Below are positions 7,385 to 17,340 of a stretch of 47,122 nt of DNA, piece after piece (within the stretch, counting starts at the first letter, position 1; the number at the start of each line of letters is the position of its first letter). The notes beneath the pieces were generated by a model. It saw only the letters and a list, made by a program, of their open reading frames with translations, ran no database searches and was not told the origin of the DNA. A program made the position numbers and the translations under genes. The stretch spans positions 1 through 47,122 of IMG/VR virus record IMGVR_UViG_3300033149_003144; one strand, 5' to 3'. The stretch comes from a virus.

Positions 7385-7414
7385 ATTATAACATTATTAC
7401 ACCCATTTTGTCAA
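7385..7414 (-). promoter_or_regulatory. Leftward sigma70-like promoter for late/structural convoy
   Basis: On the minus strand TTGACA (7414-7409), an 18-bp spacer ending ATGT, and a perfect TATAAT (7390-7385). It matches the spacing and -10 context of five other promoters in this window. It heads the packaging and virion genes. Confidence 0.8.
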
Positions 7415-7865: not shown

Positions 7866-7895
7866 TTGACATTGAAAATTAACTTGTGATATGCT
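7866..7895 (+). promoter_or_regulatory. Rightward sigma70-like promoter, first early block
   Basis: TTGACA (7866-7871), 18-bp spacer, TATGCT (7890-7895). Transcription should begin near 7902, leaving a short leader with SD GGGAGG before the TTG start at 7929. Confidence 0.75.
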
Positions 7896-9263: not shown

Positions 9264-9452
9264 ATGTTAACAGCCTTAAAATTCATGCTTACTTTTTTTG
9301 TAATTATGGTACTGTCGAGTGTGATAGAAAAAACACTCAGGAATGATTGCCGAAAAGAAACCAGACATTTGTACAACGTTGCGCTAATAGCACTGATGCT
9401 CTCGATGCTGGGGTGCTTGGTTTCGGTTTTTGCAATCATTTGGGTCATCTAA
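9264..9452 (+). CDS. Two-helix small membrane protein, paralog A
   Basis: 62 aa: one membrane helix (about residues 5-22), a short polar loop with several basic residues, and a second helix (about 40-61). Clearly paralogous to the next gene (shared LT, EKTLRN/VRTVLKN, RKE, ALML.S, G.LVSVF.IIW patterns). ATG with SD AAGGAG. No family recognised; possible holin-, antiholin- or superinfection-exclusion-like roles cannot be separated from sequence. Confidence 0.75.
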   Translation: MLTALKFMLTFFVIMVLSSVIEKTLRNDCRKETRHLYNVALIALMLSMLGCLVSVFAIIWVI

Positions 9453-9468
9453 AAAAAGGAGAAAAAAA

Positions 9469-9660
9469 ATGTCAATTAACTTGAAAATATTGCTCACGCT
9501 TTTGGTGCTCACAGTAGTATCGTTCCTAGTAAGGACAGTGCTCAAAAATGCCCATCGAAAAGAAATTGAACGTTGGTATTACGGTGTAATCATAGCACTG
9601 TTGCTTTCGTTCATGGGGTTTCTTTCGGTTTCGGTTTTTGTAATCATTTGGATGACATAA
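9469..9660 (+). CDS. Two-helix small membrane protein, paralog B
   Basis: 63 aa, same topology and loop pattern as the preceding gene, so the pair arose by tandem duplication and has since diverged. ATG 9469 is chosen for its AAGGAG site; the longer frame from 9430 overlaps the upstream gene. The conserved basic inter-helix loop and C-terminal VF.IIW motif may be functional. Unknown role. Confidence 0.75.
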   Translation: MSINLKILLTLLVLTVVSFLVRTVLKNAHRKEIERWYYGVIIALLLSFMGFLSVSVFVIIWMT

Positions 9661-9674
9661 AAAGGAGAAAAAAA

Positions 9675-10076
9675 ATGGAGCCTATTATCAGTCCTTGGTT
9701 GATTTACCTTTTGGGCATAGTCAATGGGGTAAAGAATTTTTTTACTTTCTTTGCAGCTCTTTTTGGATTTCTGTGGATCGCCACTATTGTTGGGGCAGCG
9801 ATTTCCCATCTCGATACAGATTTGACGGAGCGTTACCCTACATGGAGAAGGGCTTTTCTTATAGCTTCGATAGCATTTTTGCTTACTGTTATCCCTGCAA
9901 TTTTTGTTCCAAATCGAGCTACATTAGTCGGAATGATCGTTGCCAAAAACGTAACACACGATAACGTTGAAAAAATTGTTGAATCTGGATACTCAGTCAA
10001 GGAAGAAATCAAACGAGATATTATTGAAATTATCGAGGCTATCCAAGAAAAAGAAACGGACAAAAACTCAAATTAA
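9675..10076 (+). CDS. Phage membrane protein with helical cytoplasmic tail
   Basis: 133 aa. Two hydrophobic helices (about residues 20-42 and 60-80), then NRATLVGMIVAKNVTHDNV and a charged tail. The segment just after the second helix resembles a widespread phage membrane-protein family with a P(S/N)...T...(I/V)A motif after the second helix. ATG 9675 with SD AAGGAG. Third membrane protein in a row, upstream of the ligase genes. Function unknown. Confidence 0.7.
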   Translation: MEPIISPWLIYLLGIVNGVKNFFTFFAALFGFLWIATIVGAAISHLDTDLTERYPTWRRAFLIASIAFLLTVIPAIFVPNRATLVGMIVAKNVTHDNVEKIVESGYSVKEEIKRDIIEIIEAIQEKETDKNSN

Positions 10077-11600: not shown

Positions 11601-11917
11601 AGCTGATAGATGAATTCATTAAAAGACTCAAACCACAAGTGAAAGTGTTTGCCAAGTTAAAACACGAACACCTGAACATCATGCCAGTGCTATTTGTAGG
11701 CAACAAATACATGCGCACAGTAAAAGTATATGCAGTCACAAAAGACTACATATATCCATTAGCAGCAACAGCTTACTGTGGTGAGTGGAAATGCGGGCTG
11801 TCCACAAGGGAAAAATTCGGCAACGTTAACCCTGTCGCAATACTTGTCTACGAGGTTAACTATGATAGCCTTGCAGGCAAGAGAAAAGAAGTTCTCAAAA
11901 TTTTGGAGGCAAAATGA
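11597..11917 (+). CDS. Unknown protein of amidoligase operon
   Basis: 106 aa, basic N-terminal helix followed by a probable small beta domain (MPVLFVGNKY...VKVYAVTKDYIYPL, interrupted here). ATG 11597 overlaps the previous stop; its own stop overlaps the amidoligase start (ATGA). No family recognised. Confidence 0.65.
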   Translation: MKLIDEFIKRLKPQVKVFAKLKHEHLNIMPVLFVGNKYMRTVKVYAVTKDYIYPLAATAYCGEWKCGLSTREKFGNVNPVAILVYEVNYDSLAGKRKEVLKILEAK

Positions 11918-13932
11918 AAAAAGAAATTTACATCCAAAAGGTCCCTATGTTTAAAACTCTAGTTGGCAAAAGCGCCAGAGATTTTGAAGCAACAATGTTT
12001 TGGCCAGGAAATGAAGTGTTTATCTGCAATAAAATTCTACTACCACCTACTAATGTGGCTACAAGGAGAAGCCGAACAAGGTTTCATGATTTACCTGCAA
12101 CAAATGAAAAAAACAAGACAATCATCTATTTAACCACAAGCCAACTCAAAAGGACGCTGGAAAAAGCTTGCAAAAAGTCACTCCAAATCAAGGGACTAAC
12201 ACAAGAAAATCCTGAAACTGAAATATCAACAATTCCGATAGAACAAACATTTTCTTTCATCTTCAAGTTAAAATGGAGCAAAGGAGAACGGCTCATTGCC
12301 CTAGGTAATCCTGAGAGAAAAATTCTTATACTATTTCTGAAGAAATTTCTGAAGCAAAATGGTGTTACACTACGAGGTAAAGAAAAGGATGAATTTGGAG
12401 AACGAATTTTTCGAGAATTCATGCCAAAAATATCCAAGCCAAAATCGCTGACAATCGGATGCGATCCAGAACTGGCACTTTCTAAAGAAAATTTGTCAAA
12501 AAAGTTCAGGATAAAATCTGTAACCCTTAAAGGAGATAAAGAAGGACCAGTAACATACTCAGCAAGAGAATTTCTCCGAGAAGGACATTGCCCTATCGGA
12601 ACAGACGGAAATTCAAGAATCGCAGAACTTAGACCAAGCCCGTCAACTTCTCCCTACATCCTGACAAAGAATCTGAAGGCATTATTGCATGTGGCACATC
12701 AAGAAATAAGGCGGAAAAACAAGAAAATTATCTTATGTGCCGGTGGCGGCCATGAGGATTCTATCGGTGGACACATTCACTTGGGTGGCGATCGAATAAA
12801 AAGAGCAGTGCTATCACGCACCTATCGCCCACTGTTAACATTGCTCGATGAATTCCTTTACTGGCCGATCAAAAGGAACATGCCGGGAAGCCTCCGATCA
12901 TGGGGTCACCATCCCATTGTTGCTGGCAGAGAATTAGAAGCGGCGATTACAGAACTCCAAAAACAGAACCCGGATGATAAAGCACGTCTTAGGTTTACAG
13001 GATACGATAGGCCGTCCGCCATACGAGGTTGTGATTACGGAATTGAATACCGTTCCCTGCCCTCGTATATCTGCAATTTTCGCTTTACGTTTTTGGTACA
13101 CAAACTAGCATTCAAAATTGCAGAGAAATTTAGCAAAATGCTAGAAACCGGCGGAACCATTAGAATTAACACTCCCCCCACAAAAGAAGATTACCAGATG
13201 TTTTTGACTAAAAAAGAAACAGATGAGTTGTTCCAGTATTTCGACAAAAACAATCCAAAAAATCTTGCTCTAGTAAAGGCAATTCATCAAGGGTGGAAAC
13301 TAAAAACAGATAGTGTTCTTATTAGGGCAGAAACCAGGGTCTCCGGCATTACAACTCGCTCAGTAATAACAGAAGTATGTTCAACATTCGGGATGAAGTA
13401 CGATAAACTTCTCTACGGAATATTCAGAAAACAGCAATTCAATTTACTCGTACAAGAAAAAAACCAGCCACCGAGTGTTGCCTGCCTTGGCCCGAGGGCT
13501 GGTGTTGTTAGATTCGGAGCTCCATCGCTCAGTAGAGAAGAAATAGAATTTATTACACAAGATAACCCGGGGAGAGACGGTGTAATTTGTGGCAAATTAC
13601 CGCACGACATAGACAGGGCCAGAAACAGTCTCGAATTTCTGCTAAAAAAGTGGGTGATACTTGGCGCTATGATTCGGTATGGAGTGCCAGCAGCAAAAAG
13701 GGTACAACGAACAATAAAAATTCACAACACAAAAAAACTTGGGCTCCCGTTGTATTCGACAGTAGAAATTTTCCCTCGCCCTGTAAGAAATTTACATCGG
13801 CACCACGAAGCTAACAGAACCAGCAGTCACAACGTTGCTATAGGCAGAGGAGGCGCAACCACTTCAACACCACACTCATGGATGTGGATACCAACTCCGG
13901 GCGATCAGGGAAGAGGACAGGCAAACGGATAA
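11914..13932 (+). CDS. COOH-NH2 ligase (phage amidoligase, glutamine synthetase-like fold)
   Basis: 672 aa. Residues about 180-390 carry the motifs of the phage COOH-NH2 ligase type 2 family (phiEco32-like): GCDPELAL (about 182), IGTDGNSRIAELRPSPS (about 227), GGHIHLGG (about 284) and EYRSLPSYI (about 379). These enzymes have a glutamine-synthetase-like fold and are predicted to form an amide bond between a carboxylate and an amine using ATP. The N-terminal 180 residues and the C-terminal 250 are unrecognised and may bind substrate. ATG with SD GGAGG, coupled to the upstream gene. Glutamine amidotransferase and ATP-grasp genes follow. The substrate is unknown: cell-wall peptide, virion protein tail or small peptide are all possible. 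Confidence 0.85.
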   Translation: MKKEIYIQKVPMFKTLVGKSARDFEATMFWPGNEVFICNKILLPPTNVATRRSRTRFHDLPATNEKNKTIIYLTTSQLKRTLEKACKKSLQIKGLTQENPETEISTIPIEQTFSFIFKLKWSKGERLIALGNPERKILILFLKKFLKQNGVTLRGKEKDEFGERIFREFMPKISKPKSLTIGCDPELALSKENLSKKFRIKSVTLKGDKEGPVTYSAREFLREGHCPIGTDGNSRIAELRPSPSTSPYILTKNLKALLHVAHQEIRRKNKKIILCAGGGHEDSIGGHIHLGGDRIKRAVLSRTYRPLLTLLDEFLYWPIKRNMPGSLRSWGHHPIVAGRELEAAITELQKQNPDDKARLRFTGYDRPSAIRGCDYGIEYRSLPSYICNFRFTFLVHKLAFKIAEKFSKMLETGGTIRINTPPTKEDYQMFLTKKETDELFQYFDKNNPKNLALVKAIHQGWKLKTDSVLIRAETRVSGITTRSVITEVCSTFGMKYDKLLYGIFRKQQFNLLVQEKNQPPSVACLGPRAGVVRFGAPSLSREEIEFITQDNPGRDGVICGKLPHDIDRARNSLEFLLKKWVILGAMIRYGVPAAKRVQRTIKIHNTKKLGLPLYSTVEIFPRPVRNLHRHHEANRTSSHNVAIGRGGATTSTPHSWMWIPTPGDQGRGQANG

Positions 13933-13948
13933 AAAAAGGAGGATAAAA

Positions 13949-14761
13949 ATGTGTGGAATTTTAGGATTAATCCGATACGGAAACCAAAAGATTGATTTAG
14001 GCTTGCTTCGGGAGACATTTGTCTCCCTATCTGCAAGAGGAACGGATGCATCCGGATTTTACTTTGAACGTGAAAATACAAAGCGGGCTATAAAAGCGCC
14101 CGTTCCGGCGGATGAACTGTGGGACAACATTCATGGCAAAAAGTCACTCCCAAAAGAGACAGAAGAGCAAATGAAGAAATACCGCCTAGATGGAACAGAA
14201 AAATTAATCATCATGCATACGCGGGCAAAAACACGTGGAACGCCGCAAAACAATTACAACAACATGCCGATACATTCGGCAAGATATGTTCTGGCACATA
14301 ATGGACATATCTACTCATCAAGACTTGATGGATACAATTACCAAGCTGAGGTTGATTCAGAAGAAATTCTGGCACGAGTAGAAAAATATGGGATACACAA
14401 GGGGATAAAAAAGTGTGAAGGCTCCATGGCGATTTTACTCAAAAGACTGGACAGTAGAAACCTGTATTTCGGAAGACGAACAAATCCGCTTTCCTTAGTG
14501 TGGTTTTTCAAGGAAAAAATGCTGATAATCTTATCGGCATCACAATACGTAAAATTTCCAGAAGAATATGAGAAGATAAACGAGTTGGTATTTGGCGGAA
14601 ATTACAGCCTGACAACACCATCAGAAAACACGCTCTACAAGGTTAGTCTTGACAAGATAGGTTCAATCGAAAAAGTTGGGGACATTGAGGGGACAACTAG
14701 TGTGTCAAAATACTGGAAGGATAAATATGGAACAAGTTGGCACAGCACTTACGGAGACTAA
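13949..14761 (+). CDS. Class II glutamine amidotransferase (Ntn hydrolase)
   Basis: 270 aa, only the amidotransferase domain. It begins MCGILGLIRYG, so Cys2 becomes the N-terminal nucleophile after Met removal. Further family motifs are RGTDASGF, HTRAKTRG and LAHNGHIY, which position glutamine and the oxyanion hole. The enzyme should release ammonia from glutamine. There is no synthetase domain, so ammonia must go to a partner, presumably the adjacent amidoligase or ATP-grasp protein. ATG with SD AAGGAGG, 16 bp after the amidoligase. Confidence 0.9.
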   Translation: MCGILGLIRYGNQKIDLGLLRETFVSLSARGTDASGFYFERENTKRAIKAPVPADELWDNIHGKKSLPKETEEQMKKYRLDGTEKLIIMHTRAKTRGTPQNNYNNMPIHSARYVLAHNGHIYSSRLDGYNYQAEVDSEEILARVEKYGIHKGIKKCEGSMAILLKRLDSRNLYFGRRTNPLSLVWFFKEKMLIILSASQYVKFPEEYEKINELVFGGNYSLTTPSENTLYKVSLDKIGSIEKVGDIEGTTSVSKYWKDKYGTSWHSTYGD

Positions 14762-14762
14762 A

Positions 14763-15164
14763 ATGGATAAAATAAAGAACATTAATAAGAGGCTAGAGAG
14801 CATGGAAAGGCGGATGAAGCGGTATGAAAAAAGCATCACCCGTATGGCAAGAAAATTTTCAGAAGTAGAGGCCGATATTTTCGCTATAACCACTACACTA
14901 AACTGTAAAATTGACCCAAGTGAACGAGATGGATACATAGACAACGTAGAAGAGTCTACAAGAAAGCTATTTTTTCCAGACGGCGATGATAGTGCTATTA
15001 CGCGGTACGACAGGATTATTGACAGGTATTATGAAAGAAAAGAAGAAAAGGAAGAAGAAGAAGAAAAGAAATTGGAAACAAGGCCCATGTTTACTGAATT
15101 CCTTGGACTAGATTTCAGTAAAAAAAGCATACAGACACAGCCTATTAAAAAGGAGGGCGCATGA
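14763..15164 (+). CDS. Coiled-coil protein between amidotransferase and ATP-grasp genes
   Basis: 133 aa, charged helical protein with a Glu/Lys run (KEEKEEEEEKKLE) and a short C-terminal segment TEFLGLDFSKKSI that could be a docking or substrate peptide. ATG 14763 has SD GGAG; ATG 14727 (12 codons longer, SD AAGGA) is an alternative. The stop overlaps the ATP-grasp start. It could be an assembly partner or the peptide substrate of the ligases; this is inference from position. Confidence 0.7.
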   Translation: MDKIKNINKRLESMERRMKRYEKSITRMARKFSEVEADIFAITTTLNCKIDPSERDGYIDNVEESTRKLFFPDGDDSAITRYDRIIDRYYERKEEKEEEEEKKLETRPMFTEFLGLDFSKKSIQTQPIKKEGA

Positions 15165-15937
15165 AAGTACTAATAATTGGTACAAGACGAGCCAGGAAAA
15201 CTGGGAGAAAATTGGCATCTGCACTAGGCGCCGAATACTGTGAAAACCTACTGTCGAGAAAAGAGTTTAAACACGTAGTATTTCGATACGGAAACTCCAC
15301 GTCGTTACTACCCCTATCATTCGGCATGTTAATCAACCGGGCAATCGCAATAAACAGGGCAACAAACAAACTAGAAATGAAACAGATTTTAGAAAGGTAT
15401 GAACTTCCAACCCCAAGGCTCCTAACCTCAACTGATTGTGAGTTTCCAGTAGTTGCCAGATCAGTTGCTCATTATCAAGGCCGAGGATTCGCCATTGTAC
15501 GCAACAAAGAAGAGGCCAAAAGAGCACTTGCTAACGGTATGTTCTTGCAGGAAAAAATTGCAAACAAAGATGAATACAGAGTTTTCGTCATGTTTGGCCG
15601 AGTGCTTGAGGTAAACAAAAAAGTACCTATCGGAACGCCAAAATCAACTACAATCAGAAACTACAGAAATGGATGGTTTTTCAAGTGGATTTTAGTACAG
15701 AATGCTCCAAAAGAATTGAAGAATATAAGCGTTGCTGCCGTATCGGCGCTGGGACTCGATTTCGGCGCCGTTGATTGTTGCTTTGATATTCACGAAAATC
15801 CGTGGATATTTGAAGTAAATACCGCACCTGCTATGAACGACAGAAAAATCGCAAAAGTAGTCAGAAAAATTAAAGAGCACTATCCAGAAGATTGGAATCA
15901 AGCCGGGCCAGCAAGCGCACCGACACTGAGCGAGTAG
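15161..15937 (+). CDS. ATP-grasp ligase (RimK-like)
   Basis: 258 aa. ATP-grasp features: a Rossmann-like N-terminus (MKVLIIGTRRARKTG), FPVVARSV with the lysine position replaced by Arg, FLQEKIANKDEYRVFVMFG, and the Mg-binding end DFGAVDCCFDI...WIFEVNTAPAM (interrupted here). Such enzymes activate a carboxylate as acyl-phosphate and join it to an amine or thiol; RimK relatives add amino acids to protein or peptide ends. It is short but complete for a RimK-like core. Last gene of the block, followed by a terminator. Confidence 0.85.
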   Translation: MKVLIIGTRRARKTGRKLASALGAEYCENLLSRKEFKHVVFRYGNSTSLLPLSFGMLINRAIAINRATNKLEMKQILERYELPTPRLLTSTDCEFPVVARSVAHYQGRGFAIVRNKEEAKRALANGMFLQEKIANKDEYRVFVMFGRVLEVNKKVPIGTPKSTTIRNYRNGWFFKWILVQNAPKELKNISVAAVSALGLDFGAVDCCFDIHENPWIFEVNTAPAMNDRKIAKVVRKIKEHYPEDWNQAGPASAPTLSE

Positions 15938-15943
15938 ACCCAA

Positions 15944-15985
15944 GGGGGAGAAGGGACGGCCCGATCCTTTCTCCCCTCTTTTTTT
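15944..15985 (+). terminator. Intrinsic terminator after ATP-grasp gene
   Basis: Stem GGGGAGAAGGGA / TCCTTTCTCCCC (12 bp, one G-T) with an 8-10-base loop, followed by CTCTTTTTTT. It ends the amide-ligase block. Confidence 0.9.
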
Positions 15986-17072: not shown

Positions 17073-17102
17073 AATATAGCATAGAGAGTGGGGGTTTGTC
17101 AA
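17073..17102 (-). promoter_or_regulatory. Leftward promoter for the glycosyltransferase gene
   Basis: On the minus strand TTGACA (17102-17097), 18-bp spacer, TATATT (17078-17073). SD GGAGG follows before the ATG at 17052. Same style as the other five promoters. Confidence 0.78.
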
Positions 17103-17310: not shown

Positions 17311-17340
17311 TTGACAACTCCCTATTGAGTATGTTATACT
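17311..17340 (+). promoter_or_regulatory. Rightward promoter, third early block
   Basis: TTGACA (17311-17316), 18-bp spacer ending GTATGT, TATACT (17335-17340). Start of transcription near 17347; first gene at 17385 with SD GAGAGGG. Confidence 0.8.

Follow-up and report, generated by a model that had tools for sequence, protein, structure and literature searches.

The founding comparative-genomics paper on the cassette considered here is reportedly that of Iyer in 2009. As annotated in phiEco32, UFV-P2, PA11, CW02 and other phages, the cassette consists of two short ligases of the glutamine-synthetase (GS) fold (PF14395 and PF12224), a protein of about 180-206 amino acids encoded between them, a larger glutamine amidotransferase (GATase) and an ATP-grasp ligase, and a cyclotransferase and a class I amidotransferase are often added. 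A CxxC-containing amidotransferase tail is found in 32 of 41 full cassettes. A passage in PMC5498523 names the cassette of the phiEco32, LUZ24 and RIO-1 group a 'peptidoglycan modification cassette' that serves superinfection exclusion, and a passage in PMC10580990 uses similar wording; these passages give no experiment behind the proposal.

The window analysed here is a whole virus record of 47,122 bases. Its plus strand carries replication-type genes from about 7.9 to 25.8 kb, and its packaging and head genes are on the minus strand. The ORF list of the window confirms four plus-strand genes: a COOH-NH2 ligase of 672 amino acids (PF14395, phiEco32-like type 2; 11914-13932), which is the sole GS-fold ligase of the set; a class II GATase of 270 amino acids (13949-14761); a coiled-coil protein of 133 amino acids (14763-15164); and a RimK-like ATP-grasp ligase of 258 amino acids (15161-15937). 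The genes are closely packed, with a four-base start/stop overlap between the last two, and Shine-Dalgarno-like sequences (GGAGG or GGAGAC) precede the first three. An intrinsic-terminator-like hairpin of 13 base pairs with a T-run (15944-15977, plus strand) starts a few bases past the ATP-grasp stop codon and closes the operon. The preliminary description had placed the cassette at an operon end, and the tight spacing and the strong terminator directly after it bear this out. A putative promoter (7866-7895, plus strand), found in a consensus scan as TTGACA-18-TATGCT with an extended -10 element (10 of 12 positions, with TG), lies upstream of the operon. Strong promoter-like sites with extended -10 elements form divergent pairs at strand switches, at 7385-7414 (minus) and 7866-7895 (plus) and again at 17073-17102 (minus) and 17311-17340 (plus); one of these sites matches the consensus at 12 of 12 positions. 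Judged by eye, the adjoining ORFs 9264-9452 and 9466-9660 look like a tandem duplication: their small products resemble each other, and either one has two hydrophobic stretches.

The four-gene set is a reduced variant of the known phage cassette with a coiled-coil protein added. It shares with the phiEco32, LUZ24/UFV-P2, PA11, CW02 and RIO-1 cassettes the core by which a full cassette is recognised, namely GS-fold ligase, class II GATase and RimK-like ATP-grasp ligase in one operon, as well as the place among early or replication genes and the usual position of the ligase and GATase genes 5' of the ATP-grasp gene. The likeness to phiEco32-like phages that had been put forward is thus upheld by the same three activities in annotated phiEco32-type regions. 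In contrast to those regions, the window carries a single, enlarged ligase of PF14395 (672 versus about 265 amino acids), a GATase of 270 amino acids without the CxxC tail and an additional coiled-coil gene, and it is without the PF12224 amidoligase, the partner of about 190 amino acids, the cyclotransferase and the class I GATase. A search of all window ORFs of at least 50 amino acids gave no match to a PF12224 ligase, a gamma-glutamyl cyclotransferase or a class I GATase.

Single GS-fold ligases are present at 24 of the loci examined, and in 19 of these the ligase is of the PF12224 type. In these approximately 19 viral loci an amidoligase of about 520 amino acids, a GATase of about 305 and an ATP-grasp ligase of about 250 follow one another. 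The long single ligase, the short GATase, the ATP-grasp ligase and the gene order are shared with the window, whereas the ligase belongs to the other GS-fold family and the coiled-coil slot is usually empty. Because single-ligase sets recur, mostly with PF12224, the working core appears to consist of GS-fold ligase, GATase and ATP-grasp ligase. The two closest relatives, IMGVR_UViG_3300033388_005071 (L012) and IMGVR_UViG_3300012009_000018 (L014), have the same four genes in identical order. These phages are 49 and 46 kb in size, and by the identity of their TerL proteins to that of the window (56% and 49%) all three belong to the same lineage. However, the cassette proteins are only about 23-45% identical to those of the window, and their lengths differ: in L012 and L014, respectively, the ligase has 830 and 770 amino acids, the GATase 249 and 271, and the coiled-coil protein 118 and 177.

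All three enzymes had previously been assigned to families without database searches, and each assignment is sustained by scores above curated Pfam cut-offs, by concordant PHROGs matches (phrog_3815, phrog_4736 and phrog_2599) and by profiles from named phages. The ligase matches PF14395 (COOH-NH2_lig) with an E-value of 2.6e-16 (60.1 bits, cut-off 25) and the named-phage ligase profile at 3e-7, and its membership in this family predicts ATP-dependent amide formation. Residues G182, D184, E186, G229, D231, E238, R240, G285, H287, H289, E378, R380 and W461 are invariant in an alignment of 25 very divergent ligases, and the motifs GxDPE, E-x-R, HxH and E-x-R are invariant or nearly so. These sequences, together with the Pfam and PHROG spans, delimit an approximate core at residues 181-411 (12454-13146, plus strand). 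The AlphaFold model is confident only in stretches of the core, roughly residues 177-460, and its best Foldseek matches in the PDB comprise YbdK (1.5e-5), GshAB, glutamine synthetases and one homologue of these, and PafA/Dop; on account of these matches the core is predicted to have a glutamine-synthetase/GCS-type fold. YbdK, GshA and PafA have this fold in common with the window ligase, but at a sequence identity of 10-14% and with different substrates. Residues 1-175 and 460-672 are modelled poorly and received no family assignment. A fusion with the partner of about 190 amino acids or with a PF12224 amidoligase was considered and rejected, since hhalign of the N- and C-terminal parts, run with a single query sequence, gave no support. 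A plain single-sequence search of 50,697 phage records found no relative of the ligase and a single-sequence scan with the terminase found no match, so profile queries were used.

The product of 13949-14761 is identified by profile and alignment as a class II glutamine amidotransferase with its catalytic residues kept. It matches GATase_6 (E = 3.7e-10; 40.4 bits, cut-off 27) and the named-phage GATase profile (4e-22), and the Ntn active site is retained as Cys2 following the initiator Met, R92, N118-G119 and D136. The minimal form without a CxxC tail is common to all three proteins of the lineage. The product of 15161-15937 matches RimK (E = 3.5e-7; 30.5 bits, cut-off 21), phrog_2599 (1.2e-32) and the named-phage ATP-grasp profile (3e-33), and the alignments show that its metal- and nucleotide-binding residues D205, E218, N220 and R140 are kept. 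It scores 42.8 bits against TIGR00768 (RimK alpha-L-glutamate ligase; NCBIfam), below the curated cut-off of 143.4, and is therefore classed as a RimK-like enzyme and not as a RimK equivalog. Plain searches with the GATase and the ATP-grasp ligase matched 131 and 282 phage records, respectively, all at less than 60% identity.

The small protein encoded by 14763-15164 is, as had been suggested, a predicted coiled coil: none of 200 shuffled sequences reached its heptad pattern, and AlphaFold gives a confident helix at residues 2-49 followed by a low-confidence C-terminal tail. The slot between GATase and ATP-grasp ligase is filled likewise in L012 and L014, which makes the protein a candidate partner or acceptor; the further proposal that it is the substrate gained no support. 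In many cassettes the slot is empty, so the protein is not universally needed. A Pup-like C-terminus was rejected by inspection, as the C-termini within the lineage read KKEGA, LTERI and GEEK. PADLOC returned only low-scoring matches of the protein to long multi-domain proteins. A look-alike small protein of about 75 amino acids, recognised by eye, lies between GATase and ATP-grasp ligase in phiEco32 (L003:5512-5742) and UFV-P2 (L006:7464-7679), and its occurrence in two phage genera indicates that different small genes have occupied this slot more than once.

Conserved neighbourhoods indicate that the GATase, the GS-fold ligase and the ATP-grasp ligase are one functional set. When viral contigs were scanned with no profile but that of the ATP-grasp ligase, 80 loci were obtained, 65 of them with at least 4 kb of upstream sequence. 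Both partners occur within 6 kb of the ATP-grasp gene in 59 of these 65 loci, an association beyond chance, and the GATase gene is upstream of the ATP-grasp gene in 70 of 78. The distance matrices of GATase and ATP-grasp ligase are correlated (r = 0.57, with a maximum of 0.11 in 2,000 permutations), although part of this correlation reflects shared phage descent. Together with the order kept in L012 and L014, these counts favour one set over independent genes, in agreement with the preliminary description. None of the three enzymes matched a known anti-phage defence system in PADLOC, and a defence role was rejected on this ground.

Several loci elsewhere combine these families in other ways. 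Upstream of a PF14395 ligase, GATase and ATP-grasp ligase in a contig of the MAG Ca. Lithacetigena glycinireducens (L124, QLUP01000017.1; 4642-8468 and 11334-11795) are eight tandem paralogues of a charged-helix protein of about 150 amino acids, and a ninth lies between GATase and ATP-grasp ligase. The idea that this array is an amplified substrate was dropped because the family is arrayed on other contigs of that genome too, while the only PF14395 match of the genome is on the contig of L124. A PF12224 ligase, a GATase and a PF14395 ligase are consecutive on a 6.4-kb contig labelled archaeal (QMVU01000068.1, MAG Thermoproteota archaeon), which could be viral or a contaminant. At L113:9359-10747 and at L128:9443 and 11484, the PF14395 and ATP-grasp profiles both match one ORF of about 450 amino acids, possibly a fused ligase. 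At the Brevibacillus loci L114, L116-L123 and L126, neither a GATase nor an ATP-grasp match lies near the PF14395 gene.

The preliminary description read the cassette as modifying an envelope glycan or peptide together with a neighbouring glycosyltransferase and membrane proteins. We regard this as very improbable. Physical proximity speaks for it in the window only. The glycosyltransferase (PF00534; 16036-17052) is a separate convergent unit, located on the opposite strand past the operon terminator, and it has a promoter-like site to itself. Of 41 records that carry the cassette, 35 lack PF00534, L012 and L014 among them, and in the remaining six it is over 10 kb away; since none of the 41 has it within 10 kb of the cassette, a conserved link was rejected. 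The membrane protein at 9675-10073 and the Cys-rich 10380 product, the latter offered earlier as a possible substrate, were not found in L012 or L014, a weaker negative because the search had no positive control, and neither link is retained.

The explanation that we favour, with slightly better than even confidence, is that of a reduced cassette that would make an amide cap and a peptide-type bond. The amidotransferase would release ammonia from glutamine. As a stand-alone GATase without a synthetase or acceptor domain it needs a partner in trans, and the GS-fold ligase would be the natural receiver because it is constantly linked to the GATase; the ammonia is thus probably passed to this ligase, which would phosphorylate a carboxylate with ATP and leave an amide cap. 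The ATP-grasp enzyme, of the RimK or D-Ala-D-Ala ligase type, would form a peptide or isopeptide bond on the same molecule, and the coiled-coil protein would hold the enzymes together as a scaffold or present the acceptor. We infer ammonia as the nucleophile, the order of the steps and the role of the coiled-coil protein. GS-fold relatives such as YbdK/GshA, PuuA and PafA also act on amines besides ammonia, which leaves room for the GATase to have another purpose. No substrate or activity of any cassette member was found in the literature searched, which counts against the proposed chemistry. In our weighing, the chemistry is nevertheless better supported than the target.

A host cell-wall peptide precursor is a tentative candidate for the acceptor, well short of an even chance. 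Its peptide stem would be altered and superinfection blocked; passages on the full cassette in PMC5498523 and PMC10580990 suggest this for RIO-1-like and phiEco32-like phages. D-Ala-D-Ala ligases are the best solved-structure relatives of the ATP-grasp enzyme, yet RimK-type profiles fit it better than D-Ala ligase profiles. Amidation of wall peptides by a glutamine amidotransferase is established for MurT/GatD (PMC3267633), but the cyclotransferase and class I amidotransferase on which the phage proposal draws are absent from the window, no glycosyltransferase is co-conserved, and the literature searched held no experiment on the proposal. As a test of the wall hypothesis, PF14395 was found in one of 29 archaeal genomes, on one short contig.

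Alternatively, a host or phage protein may be given an amino-acid or peptide tag in the manner of RimK/S6 or PafA, which we consider possible at well under even confidence. Tagging would fit the RimK-like nature of the ATP-grasp enzyme, the structural matches of the ligase to PafA/Dop and the small protein that each of the three lineage members has in its operon; for related ATP-grasp enzymes, a role in modifying proteins is predicted by Aravind and co-workers (PMC4431377). However, the ATP-grasp ligase falls far under the curated RimK cut-off, and the varied C-termini of the small protein display no conserved acceptor motif. By analogy with LysW/LysX or Pup/PafA, the coiled-coil protein could be a dedicated carrier or acceptor whose flexible C-terminal tail would be charged by the ATP-grasp ligase, the product then being amidated by ligase and GATase. 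This is unlikely; if true, the phage would encode a protein-borne assembly line. A free peptide-like metabolite, akin to N-acetylglutaminylglutamine amide or gamma-glutamyl-protected intermediates, is a third possible acceptor, only slightly less probable than the other two. The GATase and the ATP-grasp ligase give weak matches to profiles from pathways of this kind (TIGR03104, 9e-5, and TIGR02144, 6.7e-5), but a Pfam search of the operon proteins revealed no amino-acid donor, transporter or acetyltransferase, and the gamma-glutamyl cyclotransferase present in many full cassettes is absent from the window.

Annotations have recorded this phage cassette for more than ten years, and the literature searched names no substrate for it. 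The natural reduced form described here marks one GS-fold ligase, the amidotransferase and the ATP-grasp ligase as the indispensable parts and the others as optional. Such a set of three or four proteins is small enough for reconstitution, and the occurrence of single-ligase forms from two GS-fold families makes the core reaction directly testable.
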